A stretch of 46,341 nt of DNA, from NCBI GenBank assembly GCA_031288535.1, contig JAITRF010000062.1:1-46341 (forward strand). The letters run 5' to 3'. The stretch comes from Desulfovibrio sp. Lineage in GTDB: Bacteria > Desulfobacterota > Desulfovibrionia > Desulfovibrionales > Desulfovibrionaceae. The notes beneath the pieces are model-generated. The model had not been told where the DNA came from, ran no database searches, and worked only from the letters and a program-made list of their open reading frames with translations. Of the stretch, positions 5-46,341 are shown one piece after another. Numbering within the stretch: position 1 is the stretch's first letter; every line of letters starts with the position of its first letter. Made by a program: the position numbers and the translations under genes.

Positions 5-80
5 TGGCTCCCCGGCACGGGATTGAACCGCGGACCTAGTGATTAACAGTCACCCGCTCTGCCAGCTGAGCTACCGGGGA
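5..80 (-). tRNA. tRNA-Asn (anticodon GTT)
   Basis: Read on the minus strand this is a complete 76-nt cloverleaf. It has an acceptor stem beginning TCCCCGG, a D-arm with AGCTCAGCTGGCAGAGC, an anticodon loop CTGTTAAT giving GTT, a T-arm with GGTTCAATCC and an encoded 3' CCA. The anticodon assigns it to asparagine. It lies directly downstream of mnmG on the same strand, after a gap of about 76 nt, and no other tRNA is nearby. Confidence 0.95.
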
Positions 81-22067: not shown

Positions 22068-25000
22068 ATGCGCAATAGCTTGGAAAAATTAAAGAAAATA
22101 TGCTTCGGCCTGGGCATCGGCCTGCTCTGCGCGTTTTTCGCCTCTCCCGTTGCGGCCAAGGTTCTGGCGGCGGATCGGGTTGCCGCCCCGGAATCCCTGC
22201 TCCCGTATTTTTCCTGGCTTGCGGATGTGAACGGAGAACTCGACATCCGGGCTGTTTCCTCCGAGGCCGTGCAGGAGCGCTTCGCTCCCCTGGCCGGAGG
22301 AATTCCCCTGAGAGGGACCGGGCCGGTCTGGCTCCGTCTGGATATCTCCCGCGGCCAGCCCTCCGGAATGCAGGCTGCGCCTGCGGCCAGGAATCGTCTG
22401 GTCATGCGTCTGGGGCAGCTGCCTCCGGGCGGGGCGGAAATTTTTTCTCCGGAGCCGGCCGCCTTTTCCGCGCCCGCGAACTGGCGCAGCGAACGCGTAA
22501 ATTCCATGGAAGAGGCGCTTTTGCCGGAGCCGGGACTGTCGCCGCTCCGGGTTTACATCCGGCTTGAGGAGATGCCCGGACTCTGGTTTTCGCCCGGAGT
22601 AAACCCGCGCAACGCGGCCGCGACGGACATTCTACCCTCGGAACTGCTCTTGCCCGGCATTATCATAGCCGCCCTGCTGGCCTGTTTTTTGCGCGCCATA
22701 GCGGAGCAATCGCAGTGGGCGCTGTGGGCCGCCCTTTTTCTGGGCTGCGTCCTGGCGCAGAGCCGCCTGCCCCTGCCTCTCCTCGGCCGGACCCCGCTTC
22801 CCGCGGATCTGCCCAGCCTGCTTGCGCCCGGTCTGTCTCTGATTTTGCTTCCGCACGTGGGCAGACGCATTTTTTTCGCCGCCGGCAATTCTCTCTGGAA
22901 AAACAGCATATTTTATCTCTGCTCGGCTCTGGGCGCGGCGATAGCCCTTGTCCCGCTTCTGAGCGGGCAATTGTGGCTGGCCAGGCTTTTCCCCCTCTGG
23001 CCCCTGCTGCTTGTGCCCCTGCTGCCCGTCTGCGTCAGCGCCCTGACCGCCCGCCAGCCCGGGTCCCTGGCTTTCAGCGGGGCCGTGGCCATGCCGGTTC
23101 TCGGGGCCGTTCTCGCGCTTTTCGCCTTGAAATTTCCCGATATACATCCTCTGGCGGCCCAGGGAGGGCTGTGGGGCCTGGCCGTGGGCGGGCTCGGTCT
23201 GGCTTTGGCCCGTATTCCCAAGGCTGCCCGGCAGGGAGGATCGGATCTGGCGGTCAGTCTCGCGGAGGCTGTGGGGGCGGAATCTTTTTCCACCCTGTCG
23301 GCGCAGAGCCAGTATGACGAATTGCCTCCTCTGGAGGTGATGCGCATGGGCGATCCGGAAGCGGGCGCGGATGTTCCCGCCCTGCCGGCGGGCGATCCCG
23401 GCAGCGGAGCCGAAGACGGAGCGCAGACGGAAAAATGGGAAAAGGGCGTGTGGACCAAGACCGGCGCAGGATTTTCCGAATATCCGGGATTTGCGGCCGG
23501 CCGGGACGAGGAAGACGGGATGTCTCCCGGCGAGGCTTCGCCCGGCGGGGAAGAGGCCGGACTGCCTCCGGAAGTGCTGGCCACTCTGCGGGGCGAATCC
23601 GAGATCTCCGAGGCCGCGTTCATCTTCAACATCCACTCCCTGGTGCGGGAAGTGCACGAGATGGTGCTTCCCCTGGCCAAAAGCCGGGGGTTGATTCTGT
23701 CCTGGTATATCGCCCCGGTTTGCCCCGCCCTGCTGGAAGGGGACGCGCCGCGCCTGCGCGGCGCTTTGGCCCTGCTTCTGCAAAACGCCGTGCGGGCCTG
23801 CGTCGAAGGCGTGGTGCAGCTCAGCGTCCGCCCAGCCCCCGGAGGACAAGGACAGGGAGACCTTCTTTTCACCATCAGCGACAGCGGGGCGGCGAAGCAC
23901 ACGGATGCCGGCTTCTTTCTCGCCTGGGAACTTTCCGCTCGCTCCGGCGGCGCCTTCACTGTGGATTACTCTCCGCAAAGCGGAACCCGCATAGCGTTCA
24001 CAGCCCGCTTCGCCGTGCCTTCCGAAGATGCGGCGCAAACTTCGGCGCCATTCCCGGCGCTTGAAGAGAACTTTGCGGAGGCGGCGGGGGAATCCCCGCC
24101 CGAAGGCGTCCAGGGCAGCTTTGAGGAAGGCGGCGGGAGCGGCCCGGGCCTGATTGCGCCTGTCGGCCATCCGCAGGAGGAGGCCGGGGGCGCGGACGGC
24201 GCGGAACCCGGCCGGGCGGATTCCGGCGCGGACGTGAAGGCGGACACTCCCCTCATACTTCTGGGGGACATGACCAGCCACAGCAGACGGACGATAGCCG
24301 GCTATCTCCGGGATTTTCCCTTCGAAAACCTGGGAGAATGCGACGCGGAGCAAATCCGGCGCATACTTCAGGAAAAAACGGCGGCCCTGCTCATCTTTGA
24401 CGCGGACATGCCGGAAGCCGACATTGTCCGGAGCATAGGCACCCTGCGCGCGGAGGAAGACATCCGGGGAACGGAGCCTCTGCCCGTTCTGGTGATAGCC
24501 GGACACAGGGCGCAGGCCGAGCGGCTGCTCAAGGCCGGGGCCAGCCACGTCCTGGGCAAGCCCTTTACCCGGCAGGCCCTGCGGGAACAGGTGATCGCCG
24601 TCCTGCCCGCCCATGCCGCATCCGGCGCCGCCTCGGAACGCACGCAAGGACAGCCTGATTCCCCGGACCTCCCTGAAACGCGAGAAACGCCCGCGGCGGA
24701 AGCCGCCGCCCAGCCGGCCGCCGCCCCGCGGGAACCCTGGACAAGCTCTTACGAGGAGGAGAGGGCGAAGGTATGGGAAAGCCCGTCCGTCCGGGCGGAT
24801 CAGGGTCCGGACTTGCGCGGTCCGGGTGTCGCCGCGGAAGAAACACAAGCCGTCCGTGCCTGGGACGCGGAGGGCGGGCGCGAACCCTGGAGCGAAGAAC
24901 CTCCCTATGCGGGGGAAAGGCGCGCTTTTGCCGACCCCTCCATCCACGATCTTTTCCTGGACCCCAGCATTGCCTTTCTGCACCCCGGCCAGCTCGCCCC

Positions 25001-28000
25001 CTTTCACGCGCCGCGGCATTCCACAGCCTCCGCTGAGACGCCTTACCATGAAGCGGACGCGCCGGCATCCGGGGAGGCCGCGCCAAAACCGGACGCCGCC
25101 GGGGCAGGGAGCGTACCCGCCGAGAGGACGGCCGCATCGGAAGCCGGCGACGCCTCCCGGACGCCGGATGCGCAGGCGGAGAACGCCGGGGCCGAACCCG
25201 GAGCCGATGCTCCGCCGGAGCGGAAAGACCAGGCCGCACCCGGCGAGGCCCCCCGACCGCTTGATGCCGGGACCGGATCGACGCCCGATGCCCCTCCGGA
25301 GCGGAAGGCGCAGGCCACGCCCGGCGCGCCGGGAGCCGCCGTCTCCGGCCGCACCGTCGGTCCCAAGGTCAAATTGACCCCCGCCCGCTTACCGCGTCCC
25401 TCCCGGGATGCGGCGGGCGCGGCCGGGGGAAGCGCCGCCGGGACGACGGCCGCCCCGTCAGCGGAACCACGGAGCGCCGCCCCCCACCACGGTCCCAGGA
25501 TCAAATTGACCCCCACAAAATTGCGGCCCCCGGACATGGACCACGACGCTTCCCGGGCCGCACAGGCTGCAGGACAGGCAACCGTGGTTCCGCCCCCCGC
25601 CGCGCCGGGTTCGGCAGCGGTTTCCCCCGCGCCCGTTTCGAATGCGGCGGGTCCCGCTCCGTCTCCGGGTACGCCCGAGCGTTCCGCCGCCCCCATCCTG
25701 AGCGGAGGCCCCAGTATCAAGCTGTCTCCCACCCGCATGCCGCGTCCGCTCCCGGACGGGTCCGGCGCTTTGGGGACCGCGCCGGCTGCGGGACGGGCAA
25801 CTGAAGTCCCCTCTCCCGCCGCGCCCGCTTCGGAAGCGGCGGGTTCTGCCGCGACTTCCGCCGCGCCCGCTTCAGACGCGACGGGCCCAGCTCCGTCTCC
25901 GGGTACGCCCGAGCGTTCCGCCGCTCCCATCCTGAGCGGAGGCCCCAAAGTCAAGCTGTCTCCCACCCGCGTGCCGCGTCCGCTCCCGGACGGGTCCGGC
26001 GCTTTGGGGACCGCGCCGACTGCGGGACGGGAAACTGAAGCCCCCTCTCCCGCCGCGCAGGATGCGGCGGGCTCTGCCGCAGCTTCCCCCGCGCCCGCTT
26101 CGGACGTGGCGGTTCCCGCTCCGTCTCCGATTACGCCCGAGCGTTCCGCCGCTACCATCCTTAGCGGTCCCCCCAAAGTCAAGCTGCCTCCCACCCGCAT
26201 GCCTCGTCCGCTCCCGGACGGGTCCGGCGCTTTCAGGACCGCGCCGGCTGCGGGACGGGAAACAGGAACCTCCTCTCCCGCCGCGCCCGCTTCGGACGCG
26301 ACGGGTCCCGCTCCGTCTCCGGGCACGCCCGAGCGTTCCGCCGCTCCCATCCTGAGCGGAGGCCCCAAAGTCAAGCTGTCTCCCACCCGCATGCCGCGTC
26401 CGCTCCCGGACGGGTCCGGCGCTTTGGGGACCGCGCCGGCTGCGGGGCGGGCAACTGAAGTCCCCTCTCCCGCCGCGCCGGATACGGCGGGTTCGGCCGC
26501 GTCCTCCCCCGCGCCCGCTTCGGAAGCGGCGTCCCTGGCGTCAAAACCCGTCACCCCGGGATCGCCCGCAACGCCGGCCAGAACCGCCGCGGCCGCTTTC
26601 CAGAAATTACGCCGCAATATCACTACGCAGCCCGGCACCCCTCCGCTTTCGGAGGCCAAAGCCGCCGGAGAACGTGAGGGCGGCGTGCCCGCTTTGCGCA
26701 AGTTGAGGAGAAAAGTCGCGCCGCAGCCCCCCGCCGACGCAAAGACGTCCCCCCCAGCCGCGGTTGCCCCCGCAGACGCCGGAGGCAAAGCCGCCGCTGT
26801 TTTGCCGCCGCAGGCGAAGGGCGTTCCGACGGAGGAAAAATCGCGGGAAGCTTTTGCCCCGGCGCCAGCGGCCGCTCCTCCCGCCCCTTCCCCGGCCGCC
26901 TATATGTCGGCCGACCTGGAGACTTCGGCCTGGACCAGAAGTTACTCCGCGGCTCCCTCCGCCCCGGCAGCGCCTGAAAACGCCGTGGCGGCGCAGGCCG
27001 ATGCTCCCCCCGCGCGACAGACCGATGCGGAGGACGTATCCGCGCCCAAAATCAAGGTGGGACCCACCCGCTTGCCGCGACGCTCTCCGGATGCCGGAGA
27101 CGACGGCGATTCCGCGCCGCAGGCGCGGGAGGCTTCCGCCGTTCCGGGACACACCGCTTCGTCGATTTTCTATTCGCCGGACGACCTGGAGTCCTCGCCC
27201 TGGACCAGGGGCTATGCCGCGCCGCGATCCGACGTTTCCACCTCGGACCGGTCCGGCGTCCCGGCCGACCCGGCCGGCCCCAAAGTCAAATTGCCTCCCA
27301 CCCGCTTGCCGCGCAAACCTTTGGAAGACAGCGACGTCTTCGGAGCGAAAACGCGGGAGGAGGCCGTTCCCGAACGCGTTTCGGCCATTGAGGCCGCTGC
27401 CGCCAACGGGGGCGCCGCCCCGATGATCCTGGGGCTTTCCGTGGACGACGTCACCCCGTCCAAGGTTTCCTCCGATGCGGAGCAAGGCGGCGAGGACTCC
27501 GGAACGGGGGGCGCATCCTTTCCCACGGATAAATTTGACGAGTGGTTCCAGCCGCATATGCGTACAGTTACGCAACTGCATCCGGAAGCCTCAGCCTTGT
27601 CGGCGATCGCCCGCACCATTGTGACTGAGGATCAGCCGCTCTTTGTCCTCGACGACATCAGGGAAGACAGCGCCGATGCGGACAAGGCGCGTTCCAGAGG
27701 GAGCATGCCGGGATACATGCGCCGCCGTCCCAATCCCGGGTCTCTGCTGGATTTCGTTCTTGCCCCTGAGGACGCGGATGGGGAAAAGGCCGACGGGGAT
27801 GCCGGAACCGACGACAGGCGGGATTTTTCCGTAACTCCGGTGCCGGGCATAGAAGGAGAACACATAGAATCCGCCGCCATACCCCTTATACCCGGGCTGG
27901 TGGAAGCCATAGGCACGGCCCTGCGGGATGCGGCCGGCGGGCTTTCGGAAAAGCATACCGTTCTGGCCCAGGAAGCCGCCTCGCGCTTGGCCGGGAGGGC

Positions 28001-28175
28001 CGAAAACTTCGGATTGACCAAGCTCGGCAGGCTTTCGCGCTGCCTGGAGCGGGCCGCCGAGGCGGATGACGCCGAGGCGGCGGGGGTGCTTCTGGAAGAG
28101 TTGCAGCTGGTGGCCAGGCGTTATCAGAGCGCTTTGCAGGAATGCTTCAACAGTTTCATCCATTACAGGCACTGA
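22068..28175 (+). CDS. Giant 7TM pseudo-histidine-kinase/receiver scaffold with repetitive linker
   Basis: The 2035-residue protein has a signal peptide (about 1-33), a periplasmic domain, and seven membrane helices (about 191-384), the plan of 7TMR-DISM sensors. A kinase-like region (511-651) lacks HisKA: the N-box (LLLQNAVRAC) and DSG survive but the Gly-rich ATP lid is gone. A receiver (726-847) keeps D778 (IFDADMP) and Lys in GKPF, but the first acidic pair is GD and the switch Thr/Ser is Ala. A Pro/Ala linker of about 900 residues holds eight basic motifs of the form G-P-K-V-K-L-x-P-T-R-x-P-R and WTRxY-type motifs. The end (about 1935-2035) resembles an Hpt domain (AENFGLTKLGRLSRCLERAA), but Ser replaces the phospho-His. 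It is likely a signalling scaffold, not an enzyme. GGGAGAG precedes the ATG. Confidence 0.8.
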   Translation: MRNSLEKLKKICFGLGIGLLCAFFASPVAAKVLAADRVAAPESLLPYFSWLADVNGELDIRAVSSEAVQERFAPLAGGIPLRGTGPVWLRLDISRGQPSGMQAAPAARNRLVMRLGQLPPGGAEIFSPEPAAFSAPANWRSERVNSMEEALLPEPGLSPLRVYIRLEEMPGLWFSPGVNPRNAAATDILPSELLLPGIIIAALLACFLRAIAEQSQWALWAALFLGCVLAQSRLPLPLLGRTPLPADLPSLLAPGLSLILLPHVGRRIFFAAGNSLWKNSIFYLCSALGAAIALVPLLSGQLWLARLFPLWPLLLVPLLPVCVSALTARQPGSLAFSGAVAMPVLGAVLALFALKFPDIHPLAAQGGLWGLAVGGLGLALARIPKAARQGGSDLAVSLAEAVGAESFSTLSAQSQYDELPPLEVMRMGDPEAGADVPALPAGDPGSGAEDGAQTEKWEKGVWTKTGAGFSEYPGFAAGRDEEDGMSPGEASPGGEEAGLPPEVLATLRGESEISEAAFIFNIHSLVREVHEMVLPLAKSRGLILSWYIAPVCPALLEGDAPRLRGALALLLQNAVRACVEGVVQLSVRPAPGGQGQGDLLFTISDSGAAKHTDAGFFLAWELSARSGGAFTVDYSPQSGTRIAFTARFAVPSEDAAQTSAPFPALEENFAEAAGESPPEGVQGSFEEGGGSGPGLIAPVGHPQEEAGGADGAEPGRADSGADVKADTPLILLGDMTSHSRRTIAGYLRDFPFENLGECDAEQIRRILQEKTAALLIFDADMPEADIVRSIGTLRAEEDIRGTEPLPVLVIAGHRAQAERLLKAGASHVLGKPFTRQALREQVIAVLPAHAASGAASERTQGQPDSPDLPETRETPAAEAAAQPAAAPREPWTSSYEEERAKVWESPSVRADQGPDLRGPGVAAEETQAVRAWDAEGGREPWSEEPPYAGERRAFADPSIHDLFLDPSIAFLHPGQLAPFHAPRHSTASAETPYHEADAPASGEAAPKPDAAGAGSVPAERTAASEAGDASRTPDAQAENAGAEPGADAPPERKDQAAPGEAPRPLDAGTGSTPDAPPERKAQATPGAPGAAVSGRTVGPKVKLTPARLPRPSRDAAGAAGGSAAGTTAAPSAEPRSAAPHHGPRIKLTPTKLRPPDMDHDASRAAQAAGQATVVPPPAAPGSAAVSPAPVSNAAGPAPSPGTPERSAAPILSGGPSIKLSPTRMPRPLPDGSGALGTAPAAGRATEVPSPAAPASEAAGSAATSAAPASDATGPAPSPGTPERSAAPILSGGPKVKLSPTRVPRPLPDGSGALGTAPTAGRETEAPSPAAQDAAGSAAASPAPASDVAVPAPSPITPERSAATILSGPPKVKLPPTRMPRPLPDGSGAFRTAPAAGRETGTSSPAAPASDATGPAPSPGTPERSAAPILSGGPKVKLSPTRMPRPLPDGSGALGTAPAAGRATEVPSPAAPDTAGSAASSPAPASEAASLASKPVTPGSPATPARTAAAAFQKLRRNITTQPGTPPLSEAKAAGEREGGVPALRKLRRKVAPQPPADAKTSPPAAVAPADAGGKAAAVLPPQAKGVPTEEKSREAFAPAPAAAPPAPSPAAYMSADLETSAWTRSYSAAPSAPAAPENAVAAQADAPPARQTDAEDVSAPKIKVGPTRLPRRSPDAGDDGDSAPQAREASAVPGHTASSIFYSPDDLESSPWTRGYAAPRSDVSTSDRSGVPADPAGPKVKLPPTRLPRKPLEDSDVFGAKTREEAVPERVSAIEAAAANGGAAPMILGLSVDDVTPSKVSSDAEQGGEDSGTGGASFPTDKFDEWFQPHMRTVTQLHPEASALSAIARTIVTEDQPLFVLDDIREDSADADKARSRGSMPGYMRRRPNPGSLLDFVLAPEDADGEKADGDAGTDDRRDFSVTPVPGIEGEHIESAAIPLIPGLVEAIGTALRDAAGGLSEKHTVLAQEAASRLAGRAENFGLTKLGRLSRCLERAAEADDAEAAGVLLEELQLVARRYQSALQECFNSFIHYRH
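25620..26560 (+). repeat. Intragenic tandem repeats in the giant 7TM protein gene
   Basis: Four long near-identical in-frame units recur, with the marker GCGTTCCGCC at about 25679, 25913, 26141 and 26333. The spacings are 234, 228 and 192 bp, all multiples of three. Each unit encodes PAPSPGTPERSAAPILSGG followed by the basic motif and PDGSGALGTAP. The near identity at DNA level implies recent duplication or gene conversion, and length variation between strains is likely. Confidence 0.9.
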
Positions 28176-28946: not shown

Positions 28947-28964
28947 TGCGTCGCAAGTCGCTGC

Positions 28965-29046
28965 GGAGCCGGACACCCGGCACAACCGTTACCGTTGCTT
29001 CCTTTCAGACCTGGCGGGGTTGGCGGCGTTACCGCCGCCCGGCTCC
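28965..29046 (-). ncRNA. ffs: Signal recognition particle RNA (small bacterial type)
   Basis: On the minus strand the ends GGAGCCGG and CCGGCTCC pair (29046-29039 with 28972-28965). The apical region reads CCAGGTCTGAAAGGAAGCAACGG, containing the conserved SRP motif GGTC-TGAAA-GGAAGCA that binds Ffh. The overall single hairpin of about 82-100 nt is the standard Gram-negative 4.5S form. It runs opposite to kdsB, whose stop is 18 nt away. Exact mature ends are uncertain by several nucleotides. Confidence 0.92.
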
Positions 29047-29118
29047 AGGGCGTTTATCGCCCGAAGAGCGGGCTTCTGTCAACCGGCAAGCCACGATATG
29101 ACAGGGGGCATCCATAAC

Positions 29119-29281: not shown

Positions 29282-29311
29282 CCGGACTGAAAAGCGCGAT
29301 TTTCAGTCCGG
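29282..29311 (-). terminator. Intrinsic terminator of the encapsulin operon
   Basis: A 12-bp perfect stem CCGGACTGAAAA/TTTTCAGTCCGG with a 6-nt loop is followed, on the minus strand, by ATTTTCTTG. It lies 29 nt beyond the stop codon of the cysteine desulfurase gene. Confidence 0.85.
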
Positions 29312-29339
29312 TTACGCATACGGAGAGGGGATTGGGAGA

Positions 29340-30830
29340 TCAGCCGTGCAAGCGCGCAAGCGACAGGAGGGTGCGCGCGAGATGCTCGATTTCCCCGGGC
29401 GTGTTGTAGAAAGCTATGGACGGACGCACGGTCGCTTCATAGCCGAAATGGCGCAGGACGGGCTGGGCGCAGTGATGTCCGGCGCGCACGGCTATCCCCG
29501 CCTCGTTCAGATACCGCCCCACATCCTCCGGGTTACGGCCGTCCAGCACAAAAGAGAGCACGCCGGCCCGGCGCGTGGCCGTGCCCACCGGACGCAGGCC
29601 GGGAACGCGCCTGAGCTCGTCGATGCCGTAGGCCAGCAGTTCCTGCTCGTATCTGGCGATGTTGTCCATGCCTATGGCCGAGACATAGTCGATGGCCGCC
29701 CCCAGGCCCACCGCGCCGGCGATGTTGCCGGTGCCGGCCTCGAATTTTTCCGGGGCTTTTTTGTAGGAGGTGCGCGCAAAGGTCACGTCTGCGATCATGT
29801 TCCCCCCGCCCTGCCAGGGTCTGGCCGCTTCCAACAGCTCGCTTTTGCCGTACAGGACCCCGATGCCGGTCGGCCCGAATATCTTGTGCCCGGAAAAAGC
29901 GAAAAAGTCGGCGTCCAGCGCGCTCACGTCCACCGGCATGTGCGAGACGGACTGCGCGCCGTCCACGCATATGCGCACCCCTCGCGCATGCGCGACGGCG
30001 ATCAGTTCCTCAAGAGGCGTAACCGTGCCCAGCGCATTGGACACATGCGTCACGGAAACGAAACGGGTGTTGCGGTTAAAGAGCTTCGCGTATTCGGAGA
30101 CAAGTATCTGTCCGCTCGCGTCCACCGGGGCCACGCGCAGCAAAGCCCCGGTTTCTTCGGCGAGGATCTGCCAGGGCACTATGTTGGAATGGTGTTCCAA
30201 AAGGGTGAGGATGATCTCGTCTCCGGGACGCAGCAGGGGGCGGACGTAGGCGTTGGCGACCAGATTCAGGGCTTCCGTCGCGCCCCGCACAAAGACGACG
30301 CTTTCCGGACCGGAGGCGCCGATGAAGGCGGCGACTTTGGCGCGCGCCCCTTCATACGCGTCGGTCGAGCGCCCGGCCAGGGCGTGCGCGCCGCGATGCA
30401 CGTTCGAGTTTTCATGTTCGTAATAATAGCGGAGCCGCTCAATGACCTGCCCGGGGCGCTGGGTCGTGGCCGCGTTGTCCAGCCAGACCAGTTGCCGGCC
30501 CTTGATCTTTTCCGCAAGTATGGGGAAATCGGCCCGAATTTTTTCCAGCGGGTATTCTCCCACATAGGGGAGGGCCGCCTGCCGCGGCGGGGAGACAGGG
30601 GCTCCGGCATCCGAAGCGGCTTGAGCGCCCGGCGTTGCGCCGTCCTGCGCGACCACGAGCGGGGCGTAGGAAGGATTCGGCTCCCCCGCTTCCGGGCCGG
30701 GCGCGTAACCGGCCGCGGGATATGCGAGCCCCGGCAGATATTCGGCCAGACGTCCGGCCGCGAACGCCGCCAGCTCCCGTTCATCGGGCAGTCCCCAGAG
30801 TTTCGGGGCGCTATTTGTAGTTGTACTCAT
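29340..30830 (-). CDS. Encapsulin cargo: SufS-type cysteine desulfurase with N-terminal targeting extension
   Basis: This PLP enzyme takes sulfur from cysteine as a Cys persulfide, leaving alanine. The 496-residue product has a SufS-like catalytic core from about residue 88 (LEKIRADFPIL): PLP-lysine K316 in FSGHKIFGPTG, LLEHHSN, and nucleophile C454 in GHHCAQPVL. Ahead of it is an N-terminal extension of about 85 residues, rich in Pro, Ala and Gly (LWGLPDERELAAFAAG and Tyr-Pro segments). Ordinary SufS (about 405 aa) lacks this, and family 2A encapsulin cargo desulfurases use such a tail for loading. Its ATG lies inside the shell gene (20-nt overlap) with GGAGAATACC before it. Cargo status is inferred from the extension and gene order. 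Confidence 0.9.
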   Translation of the reverse strand: MSTTTNSAPKLWGLPDERELAAFAAGRLAEYLPGLAYPAAGYAPGPEAGEPNPSYAPLVVAQDGATPGAQAASDAGAPVSPPRQAALPYVGEYPLEKIRADFPILAEKIKGRQLVWLDNAATTQRPGQVIERLRYYYEHENSNVHRGAHALAGRSTDAYEGARAKVAAFIGASGPESVVFVRGATEALNLVANAYVRPLLRPGDEIILTLLEHHSNIVPWQILAEETGALLRVAPVDASGQILVSEYAKLFNRNTRFVSVTHVSNALGTVTPLEELIAVAHARGVRICVDGAQSVSHMPVDVSALDADFFAFSGHKIFGPTGIGVLYGKSELLEAARPWQGGGNMIADVTFARTSYKKAPEKFEAGTGNIAGAVGLGAAIDYVSAIGMDNIARYEQELLAYGIDELRRVPGLRPVGTATRRAGVLSFVLDGRNPEDVGRYLNEAGIAVRAGHHCAQPVLRHFGYEATVRPSIAFYNTPGEIEHLARTLLSLARLHG

Positions 30831-31761
30831 GGTATTCTCCGACTTCGACGTCTTCCAGCACCGCCAGCGCGTCATCGGCGAGAACGGCGGCGGAGCAATA
30901 CAGCGAGAGCAGGTAGGAGGCGACGCCGTTGTCGTCTATGCCCCGGAAGCGCACGGACAAACCGCGGGACTGCTCGCCCTGAAGACCGGCCTGGTAGAGG
31001 CCGATGACGCCGCGCCTGGCCTCGCCGGTGCGCACCAGCAGGATATTGGTCTTGCCGCCCTTGGCTTTGGGCGTTTTCAGCCCGTCCACCAGCAGTTTGT
31101 CGGTGGGGACGATCGGCACCCCCCGCCAAAGGATGAACACTCCGCCCGCGATGTTGGCGGTAGCCGGCGGCACGCCCCGGCGCGTGCATTCGCGTCCGAA
31201 GGCCGCGAGTGCCCTGGGATGGGCCAGGAAAAAGGAGGGCTCTTTCCAGACCTTGGTCAGAAGTTCATCAAGGTCATCCGGAGTGGGGGCGTTTTTGAGC
31301 GGTTTGACGCGCTGGGAATCGGCCGCGTTTTTCAGCAGGCCGTAATCGTCGTTGTTGATGATCTGGCTTTCCTGGCGCTCTTTCAGACTCTCGACGGCCA
31401 AGGCTATCTGTTCGCCGATCTGATCGTAAGGCGAACTGTAGACGTCGGCAACTTTCGTGTCCACATTGATAATGGTGGAAATGGAGTTCAGCCGGTATTC
31501 GCGGGGTTTTTCCCGGTAAGGGACGTAGCCCTGCGGGATATCGACGCTGCCGGGGTCCTGGCTGCACAGGACCTCAAGCGGGGTATCCCCTTCGACAACC
31601 CTGTTCACGCGGTAGATGCCCGCTTCAAGCGCCTTGAATTCCAGCAGCCTGGTAAGCCAGCGCGGCGTCAGCGCCCCATACTGGGGCCTGGTTTTCGTCA
31701 CATCGGCAAGCTGATAAGCCGCATCGCGTCCCAAGGCGTTAATGGCGGTTTTGTCGGACAT
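30811..31761 (-). CDS. Family 2A encapsulin shell protein (SrpI-like)
   Basis: The 316-residue protein matches the family 2A encapsulin shell (HK97 capsid fold) known from cyanobacterial SrpI: KTRPQYGALTPRWLTRLLEF, EAGIYRVNRV, the E-loop/P-domain region PREYRLNSISTIINVDTKV, YSSPYDQIGEQ, APTPDDLDELLTKVWKEP, FGRECTRRGVPPAT, and the C-terminal CSAAVLADDALAVLEDVEV. It has no cyclic-nucleotide-binding insertion, so it is 2A rather than 2B. Sixty copies would build an icosahedral shell around the desulfurase encoded just downstream. GGAGG precedes the ATG. The gene is 21 nt after the MoeB-rhodanese gene and overlaps the cargo gene. Confidence 0.95.
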   Translation of the reverse strand: MSDKTAINALGRDAAYQLADVTKTRPQYGALTPRWLTRLLEFKALEAGIYRVNRVVEGDTPLEVLCSQDPGSVDIPQGYVPYREKPREYRLNSISTIINVDTKVADVYSSPYDQIGEQIALAVESLKERQESQIINNDDYGLLKNAADSQRVKPLKNAPTPDDLDELLTKVWKEPSFFLAHPRALAAFGRECTRRGVPPATANIAGGVFILWRGVPIVPTDKLLVDGLKTPKAKGGKTNILLVRTGEARRGVIGLYQAGLQGEQSRGLSVRFRGIDDNGVASYLLSLYCSAAVLADDALAVLEDVEVGEYHEYNYK

Positions 31762-31782
31762 GGTCCCTCCTTTCGGTATCGG

Positions 31783-32946
31783 TCAGTATTGGGTTAATCC
31801 TGTATCAATCTCCCGCGCCCAGGAATTCAATCCCTCGGCGAGGTTGAACATCCTTCCCCGGTATCCGGCCCTGCGCAGTTCCCGTATGGCATAGAGGCTG
31901 CGTTGCCCGATCTTGCAGATAAACACCGCGTCCACGGAAGGGTCGAACTCGTCCATGCGCCGCACCAGTTGTCCGAAGGGCACGACCTTGGCGTTCTCGA
32001 AGCGGATCAGCGTCTGCTCGTGAGGTTCCCGGATGTCGATAATCTGAAGCGGCTCACGGCGGTCCAGGCGGTCCCTGAGTTCTACGGCCGTCAGACTTTG
32101 CACGGGTGCTTCCTCTTTCCGGTTCAATCCGCAGAACTCCTCATAATCGATCAGTTCGGTAATGCGGGGATGTTCGCCGCAGACCGGGCAATTCGGGTCC
32201 TTGTCCAGGCTGAATTCCCGCGCGCGCATCTCCCATGCGTCAAAAAGCAGCAGCCTGCCCGTAAGTCCGTGCCCGCCGCCCAGGATCAGCTTGATCGCCT
32301 CGCAGGCCTGGATGGCCCCGATGATCCCGGGCAAAGCGCCCATAACGCCGCCTTCGCCGCAGGACGGAACCAGACCGGGCGGAGGCGGCGCCGGATGCAG
32401 GCAACGGTAACAAGGCCCCCTTCGCGCGTCGAAAACCGTGGCCTGCCCCTCGAATTGCAGGATGGAGCCGTAGACGAGAGGTATGCCCAGAAGCACGCAG
32501 GCGTCGTTTATCAGATAGCGCGTGGGGAAATTGTCCGTTCCGTCCGCCACCACATCGTAGCCTTTCAGGACGGACAAGGCGTTTTTGGCGGTGAGTCTGG
32601 TGTTGTGGACAATCACCTTGAGCGCTGGATTTACGTCCTTGACCCTGTCTCTGGCGGAAGCCGTTTTCGGCCGGTCGATATCCTTTACGGAATGGAGGAT
32701 CTGGCGCTGCAGGTTGGATTCCTCCACGAGGTCGAAGTCCAGCAGTCCCAGGGTGCCGATGCCCGCGGCGGCCAGATAGAGGGCCAGGGGCGAACCCAGT
32801 CCGCCTGTTCCCGCAATCAGCACGCGCGCCGCCTTGAGGCGTCGCTGGCCCCCAAGCCCGACCTCGGGCAGCAAAAGATGGCGGCTGTAGCGGCTCATCT
32901 CGTGCCCGGAGAGTTCTTCCAGACGGTCTTCGGAAATAATGCTCAC
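31783..32946 (-). CDS. MoeB/ThiF-type adenylyltransferase fused to rhodanese (MoeZ/Uba4-like)
   Basis: The 387-residue protein has an E1-like ThiF domain (about 1-270) with ATP loop AGTGGLGSP, DFDLVEESNLQRQ, the metal-binding CxxC pairs (CYRCLHP, CPVCGEH) and the GSILQFEGQATVFD strand. A C-terminal rhodanese domain (about 285-387) carries the persulfide cysteine C344 in the loop CKIGQR. Such proteins adenylate the C-terminus of ubiquitin-like sulfur carriers and hand over sulfur from a desulfurase. Placement as first gene of the encapsulin operon suggests it passes on sulfur from the encapsulated desulfurase; this is inferred. The start is GTG at 32946 with AAGGG upstream. No sulfur-carrier gene lies in the window. 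Confidence 0.92.
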   Translation of the reverse strand: MSIISEDRLEELSGHEMSRYSRHLLLPEVGLGGQRRLKAARVLIAGTGGLGSPLALYLAAAGIGTLGLLDFDLVEESNLQRQILHSVKDIDRPKTASARDRVKDVNPALKVIVHNTRLTAKNALSVLKGYDVVADGTDNFPTRYLINDACVLLGIPLVYGSILQFEGQATVFDARRGPCYRCLHPAPPPPGLVPSCGEGGVMGALPGIIGAIQACEAIKLILGGGHGLTGRLLLFDAWEMRAREFSLDKDPNCPVCGEHPRITELIDYEEFCGLNRKEEAPVQSLTAVELRDRLDRREPLQIIDIREPHEQTLIRFENAKVVPFGQLVRRMDEFDPSVDAVFICKIGQRSLYAIRELRRAGYRGRMFNLAEGLNSWAREIDTGLTQY

Positions 32947-33265
32947 GCGTTTGCCCTTTGCCGCCCTCCGGCGGCGCTCGGGTTTCCGCCGCCGCGGCGG
33001 CCGCCGATCTTCCGATTTGCATTATCCGGGCGCAGGCTGCGGGGGAACTATTTTTTTCTTATAGACATATACCGCTCATGCATAACCTCCTCCGCCGGAG
33101 CCTAGGGAAGGGCTGATTAATTGGAGCTCCGCCCCAAACTCCGCCGGGAGCGCGTCAGCCGTAGGCGAGATTCCGAGCCGTACTGATGACGACAGCAGTT
33201 ATAAAGATTTCCCCCGGCCCCCTCGATAATAACTCATTGAAATATCTATTGGGCGTACAGAGGAC

Positions 33266-33350
33266 AAAGCCCGCCTGCAAGCATTTCGCGGCAAGGATTT
33301 GCAAGCAAATCCTTACAGAGCAGACCAAGTTTTCAAAGTTGAACCACTCC
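33266..33350 (-). repeat. Dispersed palindromic repeat, copy G (inverted, partial)
   Basis: This copy has AAAGCCCGCCTGCAAGCATT, the hairpin AAGGATTTGCAAGCAAATCCTT and the end GAACCACTCC, as in copy C. It lacks one terminal part. The rest of the 32947-33461 interval holds the AT-rich presumptive promoter region of the encapsulin operon (around 33040-33090), without a box I would defend, and no gene. Confidence 0.7.
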
Positions 33351-33461
33351 AGCCGGCGCAGGCGACAGGGAAACGGCGTTTTCTTCGGGGTTTTCCTCCG
33401 TTGCCAAAAGGGGCGGGGTCGGATATGAGTTCACAGAGCGACCTGGACGCCAGGAACGATC

Positions 33462-33926
33462 ATGCCCGAGAAGAATGCCCCCTTCACCATGGAAAATGTG
33501 ATGCAGCGCATAATAGAACTGCGCGGGCAGAGGATTATGCTGGATTCCGACCTGGCCGCCCTCTACGGCGTGGACACCAAAACCGTGATCAGGGCCGTGA
33601 AGCGCAATATCCTCCGCTTTCCCAAAGATTTCATGTTCCAGTTGAACAATGGGGAATGGGAAACCCTGAAGTCCCTGGACGGCGCCCCGAACGCGCGGGG
33701 CGTCAGACGTTTTCCCCCGCTCGCCTTCACGGAACACGGCATCCTCATGCTTTCGACGGTCCTCGGGTCTTCACGCGCCAGAGAAATGAACCTGCTGATC
33801 ATCCGCACCTTCGTTTGGCTGCGCCAGACGGTGCCGGTCTATCAGGAAGCGGCCTCCGACCTGCGGGAGATAATCGCGGCCCTGCAGCGCCTGATCGTCT
33901 CCAAGGCGAAGAAGAGCGGGCACTGA
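33462..33926 (+). CDS. ORF6N-domain DNA-binding-type protein
   Basis: The 154-residue protein carries the phage-associated ORF6N (KilA-N-related) domain: IIELRGQRIMLDSDLAALYGVDTK, AVKRNILRFPKDFMFQL, FPPLAFTEHGILMLSTVL and the closing RTFVWLRQ. Such domains occur in phage antirepressor-like proteins and as scattered chromosomal genes of unknown role. ATG at 33462 has a weak Shine-Dalgarno; ATG at 33489 is a possible alternative. GC content resembles the core genome, but it borders the lower-GC accessory genes, so it may mark the edge of an acquired segment. Confidence 0.85.
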   Translation: MPEKNAPFTMENVMQRIIELRGQRIMLDSDLAALYGVDTKTVIRAVKRNILRFPKDFMFQLNNGEWETLKSLDGAPNARGVRRFPPLAFTEHGILMLSTVLGSSRAREMNLLIIRTFVWLRQTVPVYQEAASDLREIIAALQRLIVSKAKKSGH

Positions 33927-34648: not shown

Positions 34649-35062
34649 TCAAAATTTGTAGCTAACACCCAGTATCAAACACATTTCTCGCGTTAACGAT
34701 TCGGCGGAATGTCTTGTCAGGCAATTTTTAATTTCATTGACTTTTTGTGGAGGAAGCGTTGTCATCACCCGACAAGCGCCTTTCTCAATTTTTGACGCAA
34801 CCTTTTTGGTCTTGAACAGGGATGGTTTTCTTGAAAGGTCAAGCCATGTATCTTTTGGAAACGTGCTGCTTCCCCCGCGAATGAAAAATTTTTTCTGCGT
34901 CGGCTGGCAACCCTGATTTTTTTCTTTACCTTTGGAGGACGCCATTACAAAAATAACGTCATCTTTGTCTGCGCTGAAGGCCAACACGACAAATAACTTG
35001 TCCGCATGACCACCATCAAGAAATTCATAGTCGGAGAAATAGACGACATCCCCAATGTTCAT
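34649..35062 (-). CDS. Putative toxin of a Panacea toxin-antitoxin pair (MazF/PemK-like barrel)
   Basis: The 137-residue protein begins GDVVYFSDYEFLDGGHADKLFVVLA, the pattern of MazF/PemK-type SH3-like barrels (GD-V near the start, a hydrophobic VVL strand, then DVIFVMASSK). It ends in a helical part (LPPQKVNEIKNCL). The similarity is weak, so ribonuclease activity is only a guess. Its ATG overlaps the stop of the upstream Panacea-domain gene by 4 nt (ATGA), the usual antitoxin-toxin arrangement. AT-rich composition suggests transfer. Confidence 0.62.
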   Translation of the reverse strand: MNIGDVVYFSDYEFLDGGHADKLFVVLAFSADKDDVIFVMASSKGKEKNQGCQPTQKKFFIRGGSSTFPKDTWLDLSRKPSLFKTKKVASKIEKGACRVMTTLPPQKVNEIKNCLTRHSAESLTREMCLILGVSYKF

Positions 35063-35625
35063 CCGAACATTGCCTCAAGCATGGCGTTGTCGTCTTGTAT
35101 TTCCTTGATACGGTTCTTCTCCTCTTCGGAACAACCGTCAAGCGCAAGATCGTAGTTAATGACGGCTTTCTGGCCTTTCGTTTTCAGTGTTACGTCCCAA
35201 GGGTCATTGCGGGTATGGGACGCCTTGACTACAAGTTGCGCGGGAACATCCTTGAACATTTCCGAAATATTTTGAAGTTCCTTCTTTTCAATGCCGGAGA
35301 AGTAATAATCAGAGAACCTCGCGCCCGGCTTAGCCTTGAGCTTTGTCTCGGTGCCGGCGCCCGTTACAGTGACGATATCCTTGAGGTTAAGTCCGCAGTT
35401 CTGCCCCCGGCTTATTTCACGCCATACAGACGCCGGTACGGGGCCAAATTCCCACGCCTCATAGTTTTCGCCGGTCAGTGATTCCCCCGTTTCCCGGTAG
35501 AGTCTAAAATCAAGGTAAAACAACAGCTTCATCAGCTTCGTAAGGCCGATGGTCTTGTCGTTCTGAATGAAAAAAATGATGGCGTTTTTGAGCTTCTCAC
35601 GCCTGCGCTCTTCGCTTGTGGGCAT
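35059..35625 (-). CDS. Panacea-domain (SocA/DUF4065-like) antitoxin
   Basis: The 188-residue protein has the Panacea signature: IGLTKLMKLLFYLDFRLY, GESLTGENYEAWEFGPVP and the downstream helical core (IEKKELQNISEMFKD, LVVKASHTRNDPWDV). Panacea proteins are versatile antitoxins paired with many unrelated toxins (family knowledge). The gene is followed with a 4-nt overlap by a small toxin-like gene. The ATG at 35625 is preferred to a TTG 12 nt upstream because GGGGGAG lies directly ahead and the promoter leaves a leader of only about 12 nt. Confidence 0.85.
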   Translation of the reverse strand: MPTSEERRREKLKNAIIFFIQNDKTIGLTKLMKLLFYLDFRLYRETGESLTGENYEAWEFGPVPASVWREISRGQNCGLNLKDIVTVTGAGTETKLKAKPGARFSDYYFSGIEKKELQNISEMFKDVPAQLVVKASHTRNDPWDVTLKTKGQKAVINYDLALDGCSEEEKNRIKEIQDDNAMLEAMFG

Positions 35626-35643
35626 CCTCTCCCCCAAAATAAC

Positions 35644-44013: not shown

Positions 44014-46272
44014 TCACGCCTGTTTATAGACCCTGGTGGCGCAGATCTTGTATTCCGGTTCCCTGGATGCGCTGTCCGTGGCATGGTGGAAGAGCCGGTT
44101 GACCAGTTTGTTTTTGTCAAAAAACGGGCAGAAGACCAGACCGGGCATGCAGGTATCCGTAACTCGCGCCGGGAAGGTCATTTTGTCGCGTCTGGTTTCC
44201 AGAACCACCTGATCGCCGTTGCTGACGCCCAGCTTTTGCGCGTCCTCCGGGTTTATCTCCACAAAGGCCGAAGGATAGGCCTTTTGCAGTTCCGGCACCT
44301 TTCCCGTCATGGTGGCCGTATGCCAGTGGTCGATGACGCGTCCGGTGGTCAGGATAAAGGGATACTCCTCGTCCGCCGGCTCAAAGGGCGGCTGATGGGG
44401 ACGCAGGAAGATTTTGGCCTTGCCGTCCGGGCTCCCGTAAAAAAAGATCCTGTCCGGATGGTTGGCCGGCACCAGCGGGTCGTCGCCCCGCACATAGCGC
44501 AGGTTGGTGCCCGGGTGATCCTCGCTGGGGCAGGGCCATTTGATGCCGGATTCCCGCTTCAGCCTGTTCCGGGTAATTCCGTAGAAGTCATAGGGGGATC
44601 CCTTGCTCAGGGTTCTCCATTCCTCCCAGATGTCCGCGGCGTCTTTGTAAGGGTAAAGAGCGGGGTCCACGCCGGCTTTCCGGGCGAAGTCCATGAGTAT
44701 CCGCACCGCGGGCCGGCTGTTGCCCATGGGTTTGACGGCCTCTTCCGTGATGGCGTAGCGGCGTTCGGTGCAGCCGTATACGCCTTCGGTTTCGCACCAG
44801 AAGGCCGCCGGAAAGACGACGTCGGCGTACTTCAGCGTTTCCGCGTCCATAAAAGACTCGGTTTGAGCCACGAAGGCCGTTTCCAGCCCTTTGGTCAGGG
44901 CGTTCAGATCGGGCAGGGTATGGGCGGGATTTGTGCAGTGGATGAACACGGCCCTGACGTCGCCCTTGGCCATGGCCTCGAACAGGGCCACCGTGTGATG
45001 CCCCATTTTCGGCTGTATGGTGCCCTTGGGCACTCCCCAGAATTCCTCCATTTCCGCGCGGTGCTTCTCATTGGCCACCATACGCCCGGCCGGAAGCAGG
45101 TGAGCCAGCGATCCGGTGTCGCGCACTCCTCCGCAGGCATTGGGCTGCCCGGTCAGAGACAGGGGCGAGGCCCCGGGACGTCCGATCTGCCCGGTAAGCA
45201 GATGCAGGTTGTGGATGAGATTGTTGGCCCACACCCCGCGCGTGCGCTGGTTTATGCCCATGCACCAGAGAGAAAGGGTGCTTGAGGACTCGGCGAACCA
45301 GACGGCGGCCTTGATCACGTCCGCCGCGGGGACGCCGGTTATTTCCTGCACCTTTTCCGGGCTGTAGTCGTCCAGAAAGCTTTTATAATCCTCAAAGGAG
45401 CAGGGTTTGCCGTCATTGGTCAGGAATTTCACGTAACGGCCGTAAAAGCGCGAGTTGTCCAGCTCCTCCCGGATGATCACATGGGCCATGCCGTTGAGCA
45501 GGGCGAGGTCCGTACCCGCGACGAAGGACATGTGAAGATCGGCAATCCTGGAGGTATTGGTGCGGCGGGGGTCGGCCACGATGATTTTTACGTCCGGGGA
45601 GCTTTCCTTGCGTCTGGCGATACGGCGGAAGAGCACGGGGTGGGCTTCCGAGGTGTTGGAGCCGATGATGAAGAAGCAGGTGGCAGCGTCCATGTCGTTG
45701 TATGTGCCCATGGGTTCGTCTTTGCCGAAGGTGGTCAGATATCCGGCCACGGCCGAGGCCATGCACAGGCGCGGATTGCCGTCCACATTGTTGGTTTTGA
45801 AACCGGCCTTCCATATTTTGTTCGCCAGATAGGACTCCTCCGTCAGAGCCTGTCCGGAGCCATAATAGGCGATGGAGTTCGGACCGTTTTCACTCAGGGC
45901 CTGGCGGAACGCTTTGGCCGCGAATTCCAGGGCCTCGTCCCAACTGACCTTTTCCAGGGGAGAGGATTTGCCCCCGCGCCGGATCATCGGTTCGACGGCG
46001 CGATCCCGGGCGTAGATGACCGGGATGAGCATGGAGCCTTTCAGACAAAGCAGACCTTCATTGTGATTGTTGGGGTCGCCTTTTATGGATACCGCCTTGT
46101 CGCCCCTGACGCCCACCAGGACGCCGCAACCGGTGCCGCAGTAGCGGCATACCCCCTTGACCCATCTGTCCACGCCATCGTCGGCGGCCTCCGCCAGGGG
46201 AACGGACCCCACCATGCCCAAGGCCAGGGCGGCCGCCGAATTTATTAAAAATTCCCTTCTGGAAACAGACAT
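44014..46272 (-). CDS. napA: Periplasmic nitrate reductase catalytic subunit NapA
   Basis: NapA reduces nitrate to nitrite in the periplasm using a Mo-bis-MGD cofactor and one 4Fe-4S cluster. The 752-residue precursor has a twin-arginine signal (SRREFLINSAAALALG, cleavage near residue 30). Cluster ligands are Cys42, 45, 49 and 76 (CRYCGTGC...CLKG), and the Mo-ligating cysteine is Cys170 (GNPRLCMASAV). Cys170 corresponds to mature Cys140 as in the D. desulfuricans enzyme. The size also fits the short monomeric Desulfovibrio form. AAGGAGG precedes the ATG. No napB follows; electron-donor genes such as napM and napC, if present, lie upstream beyond the window. Confidence 0.97.
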   Translation of the reverse strand: MSVSRREFLINSAAALALGMVGSVPLAEAADDGVDRWVKGVCRYCGTGCGVLVGVRGDKAVSIKGDPNNHNEGLLCLKGSMLIPVIYARDRAVEPMIRRGGKSSPLEKVSWDEALEFAAKAFRQALSENGPNSIAYYGSGQALTEESYLANKIWKAGFKTNNVDGNPRLCMASAVAGYLTTFGKDEPMGTYNDMDAATCFFIIGSNTSEAHPVLFRRIARRKESSPDVKIIVADPRRTNTSRIADLHMSFVAGTDLALLNGMAHVIIREELDNSRFYGRYVKFLTNDGKPCSFEDYKSFLDDYSPEKVQEITGVPAADVIKAAVWFAESSSTLSLWCMGINQRTRGVWANNLIHNLHLLTGQIGRPGASPLSLTGQPNACGGVRDTGSLAHLLPAGRMVANEKHRAEMEEFWGVPKGTIQPKMGHHTVALFEAMAKGDVRAVFIHCTNPAHTLPDLNALTKGLETAFVAQTESFMDAETLKYADVVFPAAFWCETEGVYGCTERRYAITEEAVKPMGNSRPAVRILMDFARKAGVDPALYPYKDAADIWEEWRTLSKGSPYDFYGITRNRLKRESGIKWPCPSEDHPGTNLRYVRGDDPLVPANHPDRIFFYGSPDGKAKIFLRPHQPPFEPADEEYPFILTTGRVIDHWHTATMTGKVPELQKAYPSAFVEINPEDAQKLGVSNGDQVVLETRRDKMTFPARVTDTCMPGLVFCPFFDKNKLVNRLFHHATDSASREPEYKICATRVYKQA

Positions 46273-46341
46273 ATGTTCCTCCTTGCGGCCTTCAGCGGGG
46301 CGCACGCCCCGCGCTCTTTTACGGCTTCAGCCTGGAGCGGT
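46273..46341. other. Window end upstream of napA
   Basis: These bases hold the napA Shine-Dalgarno and a small hairpin, GGGGCG-CAC-GCCCCG. The final bases CTGGAGCGGT match the first bases of the dispersed repeat, so another copy may begin at the edge; too little is visible to call it. Confidence 0.35.

Follow-up and report, generated by a model that had tools for sequence, protein, structure and literature searches.

A recurring family 2A encapsulin operon with an E1-rhodanese gene, and a possible carrier route for its sulfur

Three tightly coupled genes in a stretch of DNA from Desulfovibrio sp. (46,341 nucleotides, contig JAITRF010000062.1 of assembly GCA_031288535.1; hereafter the window) encode MoeBR, in which an E1-like adenylyltransferase of the MoeB/Uba4 type and a rhodanese share one chain, followed by a predicted family 2A encapsulin shell and a SufS-type cysteine desulfurase. 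Judged by the gene neighbourhoods of its relatives, the arrangement is a recurring operon subtype and not an odd one-off accessory. In those relatives a ubiquitin-fold carrier protein resembling mycobacterial CysO is encoded in the same row, and we favour, if only somewhat, the reading that MoeBR would draw sulfur from a shell loaded by its predicted cargo desulfurase onto such a carrier, feeding cysteine in the relatives. A more ambitious formulation, tentative and in our estimate short of probable, is that of a sulfur bank whose deposit and withdrawal counters share an operon: the encapsulated desulfurase would deposit cysteine sulfur, and the E1-rhodanese would withdraw it onto a ubiquitin-fold carrier, on which cysteine would be rebuilt with no need of free sulfide. 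Both the sulfur acceptor that family 2A has lacked and a source of sulfur for the CysO route would then be identified, and the operon type would have spread among gut bacteria belonging to many phyla.

The operon in the window and the constraint on its genes

Domain and profile matches bear out the original prediction of a tight operon of E1-rhodanese, 2A shell and SufS-type desulfurase, all on the minus strand (Table 1). MoeBR and the shell gene are separated by 21 nt, the 3' end of the shell gene overlaps the start of the desulfurase gene (ATG at 30830) by 20 nt, and the single operon end that had been proposed is a terminator-like hairpin, in a window whose hairpins overall are in no excess (8 found against 6.8 ± 2.5 in shuffles). 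The shell passes the curated 2A model, scores 307.7 bits with the SrpI-like family of Pfam, and aligns with SrpI and its relatives over almost its whole length. It lacks the inserted cyclic nucleotide-binding domain of type 2B, giving one unbroken match from residue 10 to 313, where 2B-type frames taken for comparison are ~470–520 residues long and give split matches. It is predicted to be a family 2A encapsulin-type protein.

The desulfurase passes the SufS model TIGR01979 (535.5 bits, cut-off 475.1) and falls slightly below the cut-off of NF041166, the model for the 2A cargo desulfurase (754.1 against 800); positions 1–223 of that profile find no counterpart, the match beginning at 224. An N-terminal extension had been put at about 85 residues; it exists, but from the ATG at 30830 its length is ~92. 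A longer start at 30875 is less likely, because in many relatives the position of the shorter one is occupied by a conserved M[TSN]. Across the clade of nearest shells described below, such extensions have a median of 118 residues (range 55–540 in the 78 of 80 loci that gave one; upper bounds, counted from the first start codon), compared with 224–319 in five ordinary 2A desulfurases. Their motifs differ too: YFP[ED] is present in 44 of the 78 and in none of the five (shuffled mean 0.46, maximum 4), and a loose form of the published loading motif LARLANEFFS in none of the 78 and in two of the five. That the desulfurase is the cargo of the shell is a prediction.

MoeBR starts at a GTG, is 387 residues long and keeps the conserved cysteines of the E1-rhodanese type in both domains, the position given earlier for Cys344 in the rhodanese domain (CKIGQR) being correct. 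It passes the broader MoeB subfamily model NF004281 (291.3, cut-off 266) and stays below the equivalog cut-offs of MoeB (TIGR02355, 225.2 bits against 376.55; NF005646, 454.4 against 633) and MoeZ (434.9 against 647). Between the window and its sister G008, the ratio of nonsynonymous to synonymous substitution rates (dN/dS) is 0.29 for the E1 part, 0.15 for the rhodanese, 0.07 for the shell, 0.21 for the enzyme part of the desulfurase and 0.80 for its extension. The only departure of the window protein from the 122 columns that are at least 95% conserved across 69 linked relatives is R311Q, which the sister shares; a second MoeBR in the same genome (contig C150, 53.8% identical) departs at 25. 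The low dN/dS and this single departure suggest that MoeBR is still constrained, and the constraint on both domains is what one would expect if the enzyme still acted on a carrier from another locus, activating and sulfurating it.

Recurrence of the linkage

The loci examined are the best 80 of at least 469 confirmed relatives, with shell identities of 74–96%, and their frequencies are valid for this clade only; seven are the same DNA as copies from the genus. Most are binned metagenome contigs whose taxon labels may be wrong, and where a contig ends the numbers of genes given are minimum values. MoeBR is present in 70 of the 80, lying within 1.5 kb upstream of the shell in 66 of the 75 loci whose upstream DNA extends for 1250 bp or more, and downstream of it in two (L053, L059). 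Within the genus it directly precedes eight of ten shell copies. The wider comparison of 2A loci suggested with the original prediction thus finds that the linkage recurs, and a gene order unique to the window is ruled out.

The MoeBR-bearing loci are labelled as nine phyla (Thermodesulfobacteriota, Bacillota, Synergistota, Spirochaetota, Pseudomonadota, Fibrobacterota, Planctomycetota, Lentisphaerota and Myxococcota). Many record titles mention rumen or reticulum samples, and many other loci are presumably termite-gut bins. Binning error is not the whole explanation of the linkage, since the row is also carried by isolates (Pectobacterium betavasculorum NCPPB 2795, L085; Treponema zioleckii kT3, L089) and by a plasmid, the mobilizable pACIB of Aliarcobacter cibarius (L153, 62670–75605), where the full cassette lies beside a sulfate transporter gene of the ATP-binding cassette type. 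On the plasmid, the row and MoeBR itself are broken up by IS110 and IS5 insertion elements, so that what is annotated ahead of the shell is a piece with the rhodanese only.

Clustering of 926 neighbouring open reading frames gave a recurrent row of CysM-type synthase, JAB peptidase, carrier, MoeBR, shell, desulfurase and serine acetyltransferase. The carrier, counted by profile search, is found in 67 of the 70 loci with MoeBR and in none of the 10 without; the three exceptions are the sister of the window (L025) and two loci at contig ends (L045, L070). It is fused to the front of MoeBR in 20 of the 67, and only two of the 47 unfused carriers end at Gly-Gly, so that the other 45, with tails of 1–69 residues, need trimming. 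Of the 70 loci with MoeBR, 60 also have JAB, 48 the CysM-type synthase and 43 serine acetyltransferase; MoeBR, carrier, JAB and CysM all stand upstream of the shell in 43 of the 80. Shell and MoeBR distances correlate across the 43 loci with all four proteins (Spearman 0.49 against a permuted maximum of 0.27), which partly reflects shared ancestry. No moaE or thiG cluster is among the recurrent neighbour clusters (those seen in at least four loci).

The solved structure nearest to the carrier is chain C of 3dwg, mycobacterial CysO (E 1.6e-13), from an entry for the CysM-CysO complex; the carrier also passes the NCBIfam SAMP1 model (62.3 against 60 bits). The synthase is nearest to the E. coli-type CysM structures 2jc3 and 2bhs and best fits the cysM model, below its cut-off (339.1 against 394.2). 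The peptidase is a Prok-JAB protein (84.4 bits) whose sole NCBIfam match, the desampylase, is far below cut-off (64.6 against 130). The fused carrier-MoeBR protein matches ThiS, ThiF and Rhodanese; its structure model (mean pLDDT 78.2, pTM 0.67, 17 sequences) served for fold comparison only, over residues 113–376, and the missing rows for the carrier domain there mean nothing. Taken together, the accessory set would correspond to the known thiocarboxylate route to cysteine of MoeZR, CysO, CysM and Mec+, joined to an encapsulated desulfurase.

A second module stands near the shell in some rumen loci, nine of the 80 (L055, L066, L079, L080, L081, L095, L096, L100 and L104): a ThiS-type carrier, a MoeB without rhodanese and JAB, often with TusA, MetY, thioredoxin and TrxB. 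The published operon type 4e resembles it (PMC1779556).

Within and around the genus, a 2A shell was found in nine of 59 genomes searched, the window's own (G000, 2.83 Mb in 153 contigs, of which the window is C18) included: nine of 15 in the genus and none of 44 others. The carrier precedes MoeBR at six of the ten copies (G001, G003, G004, G007, G012 and G013:C48), in some of them, such as L018 and L022, with the full set of CysM, JAB, carrier and MoeBR. It is absent at four: the window, the sister copy G008:C37, G005:C135 and G013:C6. In G008 and G005, CysM-JAB-carrier-MoeBR forms a cassette of its own on a different contig, C16 in G008; the G005 copy runs off its contig end. After the free-standing cassette on C16 (L141:7464–9058) come modB (216.7 bits, cut-off 182.6) and a modC-like gene.

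The window itself gave no match to the carrier, to JAB (sought within the window only) or to the CysM-type synthase, and no remnant of a carrier upstream of MoeBR: no match better than E 0.02 in the window and none in 32947–33462. Its genome holds just two generic cysteine synthases, 39–44% identical to this CysM type, and the search that found no carrier there found one at E below 1e-20 in eight of the 15 genus genomes. Nor was any protein of the ThiS/MoaD family (PF02597) found in that genome, despite a NapA-like gene, which is likely due to an assembly gap or a divergent MoaD. The missing carrier is weak evidence for the same reason, the genome being incomplete and lacking a MoaD/ThiS that its NapA-like gene would lead one to expect, yet it stands. 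The window holds a reduced form of the operon type, with what would be the deposit part and the withdrawal enzyme, and its carrier would have to come from another locus.

Comparison with ordinary family 2A loci and known carrier systems

In the published operons of desulfurase encapsulins, 1281 of them from family 2A, serine acetyltransferase and rhodanese are the accessories with the strongest enrichment, and a rhodanese dedicated to the task has been proposed as their sulfur acceptor (PMC8346489); the earlier statement about the usual 2A neighbours agrees with that source. For the cargo, a loading motif and a faster enzyme inside the shell are described, the fate of the sulfur being left open (PMC8049743). 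'ThiF' is absent from the main text of PMC8346489, as are rhodanese, ThiF and MoeB from that of PMC8049743, where for both the neighbour tables of the supplements may list ThiF or ThiS. The literature searched contained no relevant paper joining encapsulin with thiocarboxylate, CysO or MoeB (two papers that name encapsulin with CysO are unrelated by title, one that names it with MoeB concerns, by its title, an imaging tag, and subscription papers and supplements lay outside the search), which is not proof that the union of encapsulin and CysO is unpublished.

Our own sample of ordinary loci points the same way. Of 398 genomes of Pseudomonadota, the phylum of Pectobacterium, 17 matched, and 12 were kept once the centre genome and four of type 2B (G485, G600, G608, G728) had been left out. 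No E1 domain lies within ~1.5 kb on either side of these 12 shells, a reach that a more distant E1 would escape, and 10 have serine acetyltransferase beside them; nor does an E1 domain occur in the 6-kb flanks of five plasmid 2A loci (Azospirillum, Synechococcus, Variovorax, Methylosinus and Paraburkholderia). The candidate that any 2A shell may adjoin MoeBR is ruled out by these counts. In the phylum of the window, five of 395 genomes matched, two of type 2B; besides the window, the matches are G320 and G360, and both carry MoeBR, G360 as a fragment at the edge of the locus. A tree of 104 shells places the 17 ordinary ones on one side of a 100/100 branch; the tree is midpoint-rooted and there is a sampling gap between them and the clade. 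MoeBR-less loci are scattered among MoeBR-bearing ones in this tree, so the pattern reads as repeated loss of MoeBR within the clade.

The operon thus resembles the SrpI/CyD system of Synechococcus elongatus and other family 2A desulfurase encapsulins in its shell above the 2A cut-off, its adjacent SufS-type desulfurase with an N-terminal extension and, often, a serine acetyltransferase nearby (PMC8049743, PMC8346489). It differs in three respects: the plain rhodanese there is replaced here by an E1-rhodanese and, in relatives, a CysO-like carrier cassette; the cargo extension is shorter, with another N-terminal motif; and the shells lie across the 100/100 branch. Mycobacterial MoeZR-CysO-CysM-Mec+ (PMC3227635) and operon type 4c, the same cassette without shell or desulfurase (PMC1779556), share with the relatives a row of E1-rhodanese, a ThiS/MoaD-type carrier nearest to CysO, JAB and cysteine synthase; unlike them, the relatives join it to an encapsulin and a desulfurase and often fuse the carrier to the E1. 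The serine acetyltransferase in many rows suggests O-acetylserine rather than O-phosphoserine as the substrate in relatives. In MoaX, a fused MoaD-MoaE, the carrier likewise stands ahead of another protein and has to be cut after Gly-Gly, by a protease unidentified there (PMC4326299); in the present operons it is MoeBR to which the carrier is fused, and JAB is often encoded alongside. Uba4-Urm1 and MoeB-MoaD differ in feeding tRNA thiolation or molybdopterin, and such partner genes do not recur here.

A proposed route for the sulfur and its rivals

In the route that we favour, the encapsulated desulfurase would convert cysteine to alanine and leave sulfane sulfur in the shell, as in published 2A systems, and Cys344 of the rhodanese would pick this sulfur up as a persulfide outside the shell, either directly or through a small thiol. 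The E1 domain would adenylate the Gly-Gly end of the carrier, whose thiocarboxylate the persulfide would then form, as published for MoeZR and CysO. In the linked operons, JAB may trim the tail of the carrier or free it from a fused MoeBR, and may also release the cysteine that the CysM-type synthase would build on it. The window would keep the deposit part and the withdrawal enzyme and depend on a carrier encoded elsewhere. It is tempting to see in this a way of keeping reactive sulfur in a shell and moving it solely as a protein-bound thiocarboxylate, and an operon type with carrier-E1 fusions joins two open questions, one about 2A encapsulins and one about the sulfur source of CysO, both directly testable with few proteins.

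Several observations weigh against this route. Two genus copies (G005:C135 and the second copy of G013) and 10 of the 80 loci have no MoeBR, seven of them with room for it (L030, L047, L062, L064, L065, L068, L099) and three cut short, so shell and desulfurase can do without it. Neither the carrier nor this type of CysM was found in the window's genome, at 95.2% completeness. The window desulfurase has neither the YFP[ED] of its clade nor LARLANEFFS, and cargo loading stays a prediction. A desulfurase and a cysteine synthase encoded together would run a futile cycle if they did not act at different times, and sulfate reducers of the Desulfovibrio type should not be short of sulfide.

The original prediction sent the sulfur to carrier-based thiolation of molybdopterin, thiamin or tRNA. 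In kind this agrees with the finding of a carrier at 67 of the 70 loci that have MoeBR, but its targets do not fit the partners: because this carrier resembles CysO and is accompanied by a CysM-type synthase and JAB, cysteine is the likelier sink on the evidence of gene content, and no moaE or thiG cluster recurs. That MoeBR with a MoaD/ThiS-type carrier mainly serves molybdopterin, or thiamin or tRNA thiolation, seems to us unlikely. MoeZR can serve both MoaD and CysO, sulfurating each (CysO in vivo in E. coli), and the sulfur source of the CysO route is called unknown (PMC3227635); the ThiS-type carrier with a second MoeB at 9 of the 80 loci would also suit this alternative, which must, however, accommodate the absence of a PF02597 carrier from the window's genome and the score of MoeBR under the MoeB equivalog cut-off. 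The nap genes had been offered as a sign of this target: a NapA-like gene does lie ~11 kb from the operon, but it is under the NapA cut-off (654.6 against 904) and counts for little as evidence; among relatives, the only pointer to molybdenum is the modB and modC-like genes after the free cassette in G008.

About as improbable, we think, is that in the lineage of the window MoeBR acts purely as a rhodanese acceptor for shell sulfur, its E1 half a leftover of a lost carrier operon. The missing carrier would be explained, a plain rhodanese serves in ordinary 2A operons (PMC8346489; L155), and the Aliarcobacter plasmid keeps a rhodanese-only piece before its shell; yet the E1 is under purifying selection, with its conserved residues kept, and the sister genome has the carrier.

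A 2024 study by Benisch et al. is said to concern sulfur storage. Desulfurase encapsulins are listed as sulfur stores (PMC12407261), and with shell and desulfurase found without MoeBR at some loci one might suppose that the shell row stores or detoxifies sulfur and that MoeBR is carried along, taking none of it; a linkage in which MoeBR is directly upstream in 66 of 75 clade loci, repeated across labelled phyla, makes this quite improbable. Least probable of all is a SAMP-like protein tag with JAB as its remover, controlling shell or cargo, for although the carrier passes the SAMP1 model, the sole match of JAB is a sub-threshold desampylase and SAMP1-JAMM regulation is published (PMC4443979), the cysteine synthase and serine acetyltransferase of the same rows point to metabolism and the closest solved relative of the carrier is CysO.

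Table 1. Operon features in the window, with positions, strand and basis.
Feature	Position	Strand	Basis
MoeBR (E1-like MoeB/Uba4-type adenylyltransferase plus rhodanese), gene 1 of the row	31783..32946	-	PF00899 268.9 bits, PF00581 37.4 bits; 1/122 conserved columns changed
E1 (ThiF) domain, with Cys196 (codon 32361-32359) within PSCGEGG	32182..32889	-	domain match
Rhodanese domain, with Cys344 (codon 31917-31915) within CKIGQR	31813..32091	-	domain match, conservation
Predicted family 2A encapsulin shell (SrpI-like), 316 residues	30811..31761	-	NF041162 478.8 bits, cut-off 380; SrpI 6x8m E 3.6e-112
SufS-type cysteine desulfurase, predicted cargo, 496 residues; catalytic-type Cys454 (codon 29471-29469)	29340..30830	-	TIGR01979 over cut-off
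N-terminal motif LWGLPDERELAAFAAGRLAEYLPGL, predicted loading peptide, counterpart of the clade's GLPSExELAxxA..YFPEF	30726..30800	-	motif comparison
Terminator-like hairpin: 12-bp stem, then ATTTTCTTGA	29282..29311	-	hairpin scan

Among the neighbours of the operon, a bacterial small signal recognition particle RNA (RF00169, 56.4 bits) lies at 28955–29051 on the same strand, just beyond the terminator. It and a tRNA at 8–80 (-) are the only Rfam families that attain a gathering score, and no riboswitch was found near the operon. On its other side, a protein with an ORF6N domain is encoded at 33462–33926 (+), and at 34649–35637 (-) lie the gene of a SocA/Panacea antitoxin-like protein and, adjoining it, an unnamed open reading frame of 137 residues. 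The NapA-like molybdopterin oxidoreductase (44014–46305, -) is short at 763 residues, with NapA as its best family and formate dehydrogenase as a further match (539.2). A 2035-residue open reading frame at 22068–28175 (+) has a very long, repetitive centre rich in proline and alanine, flanked by what appear by eye to be signalling-like domains.

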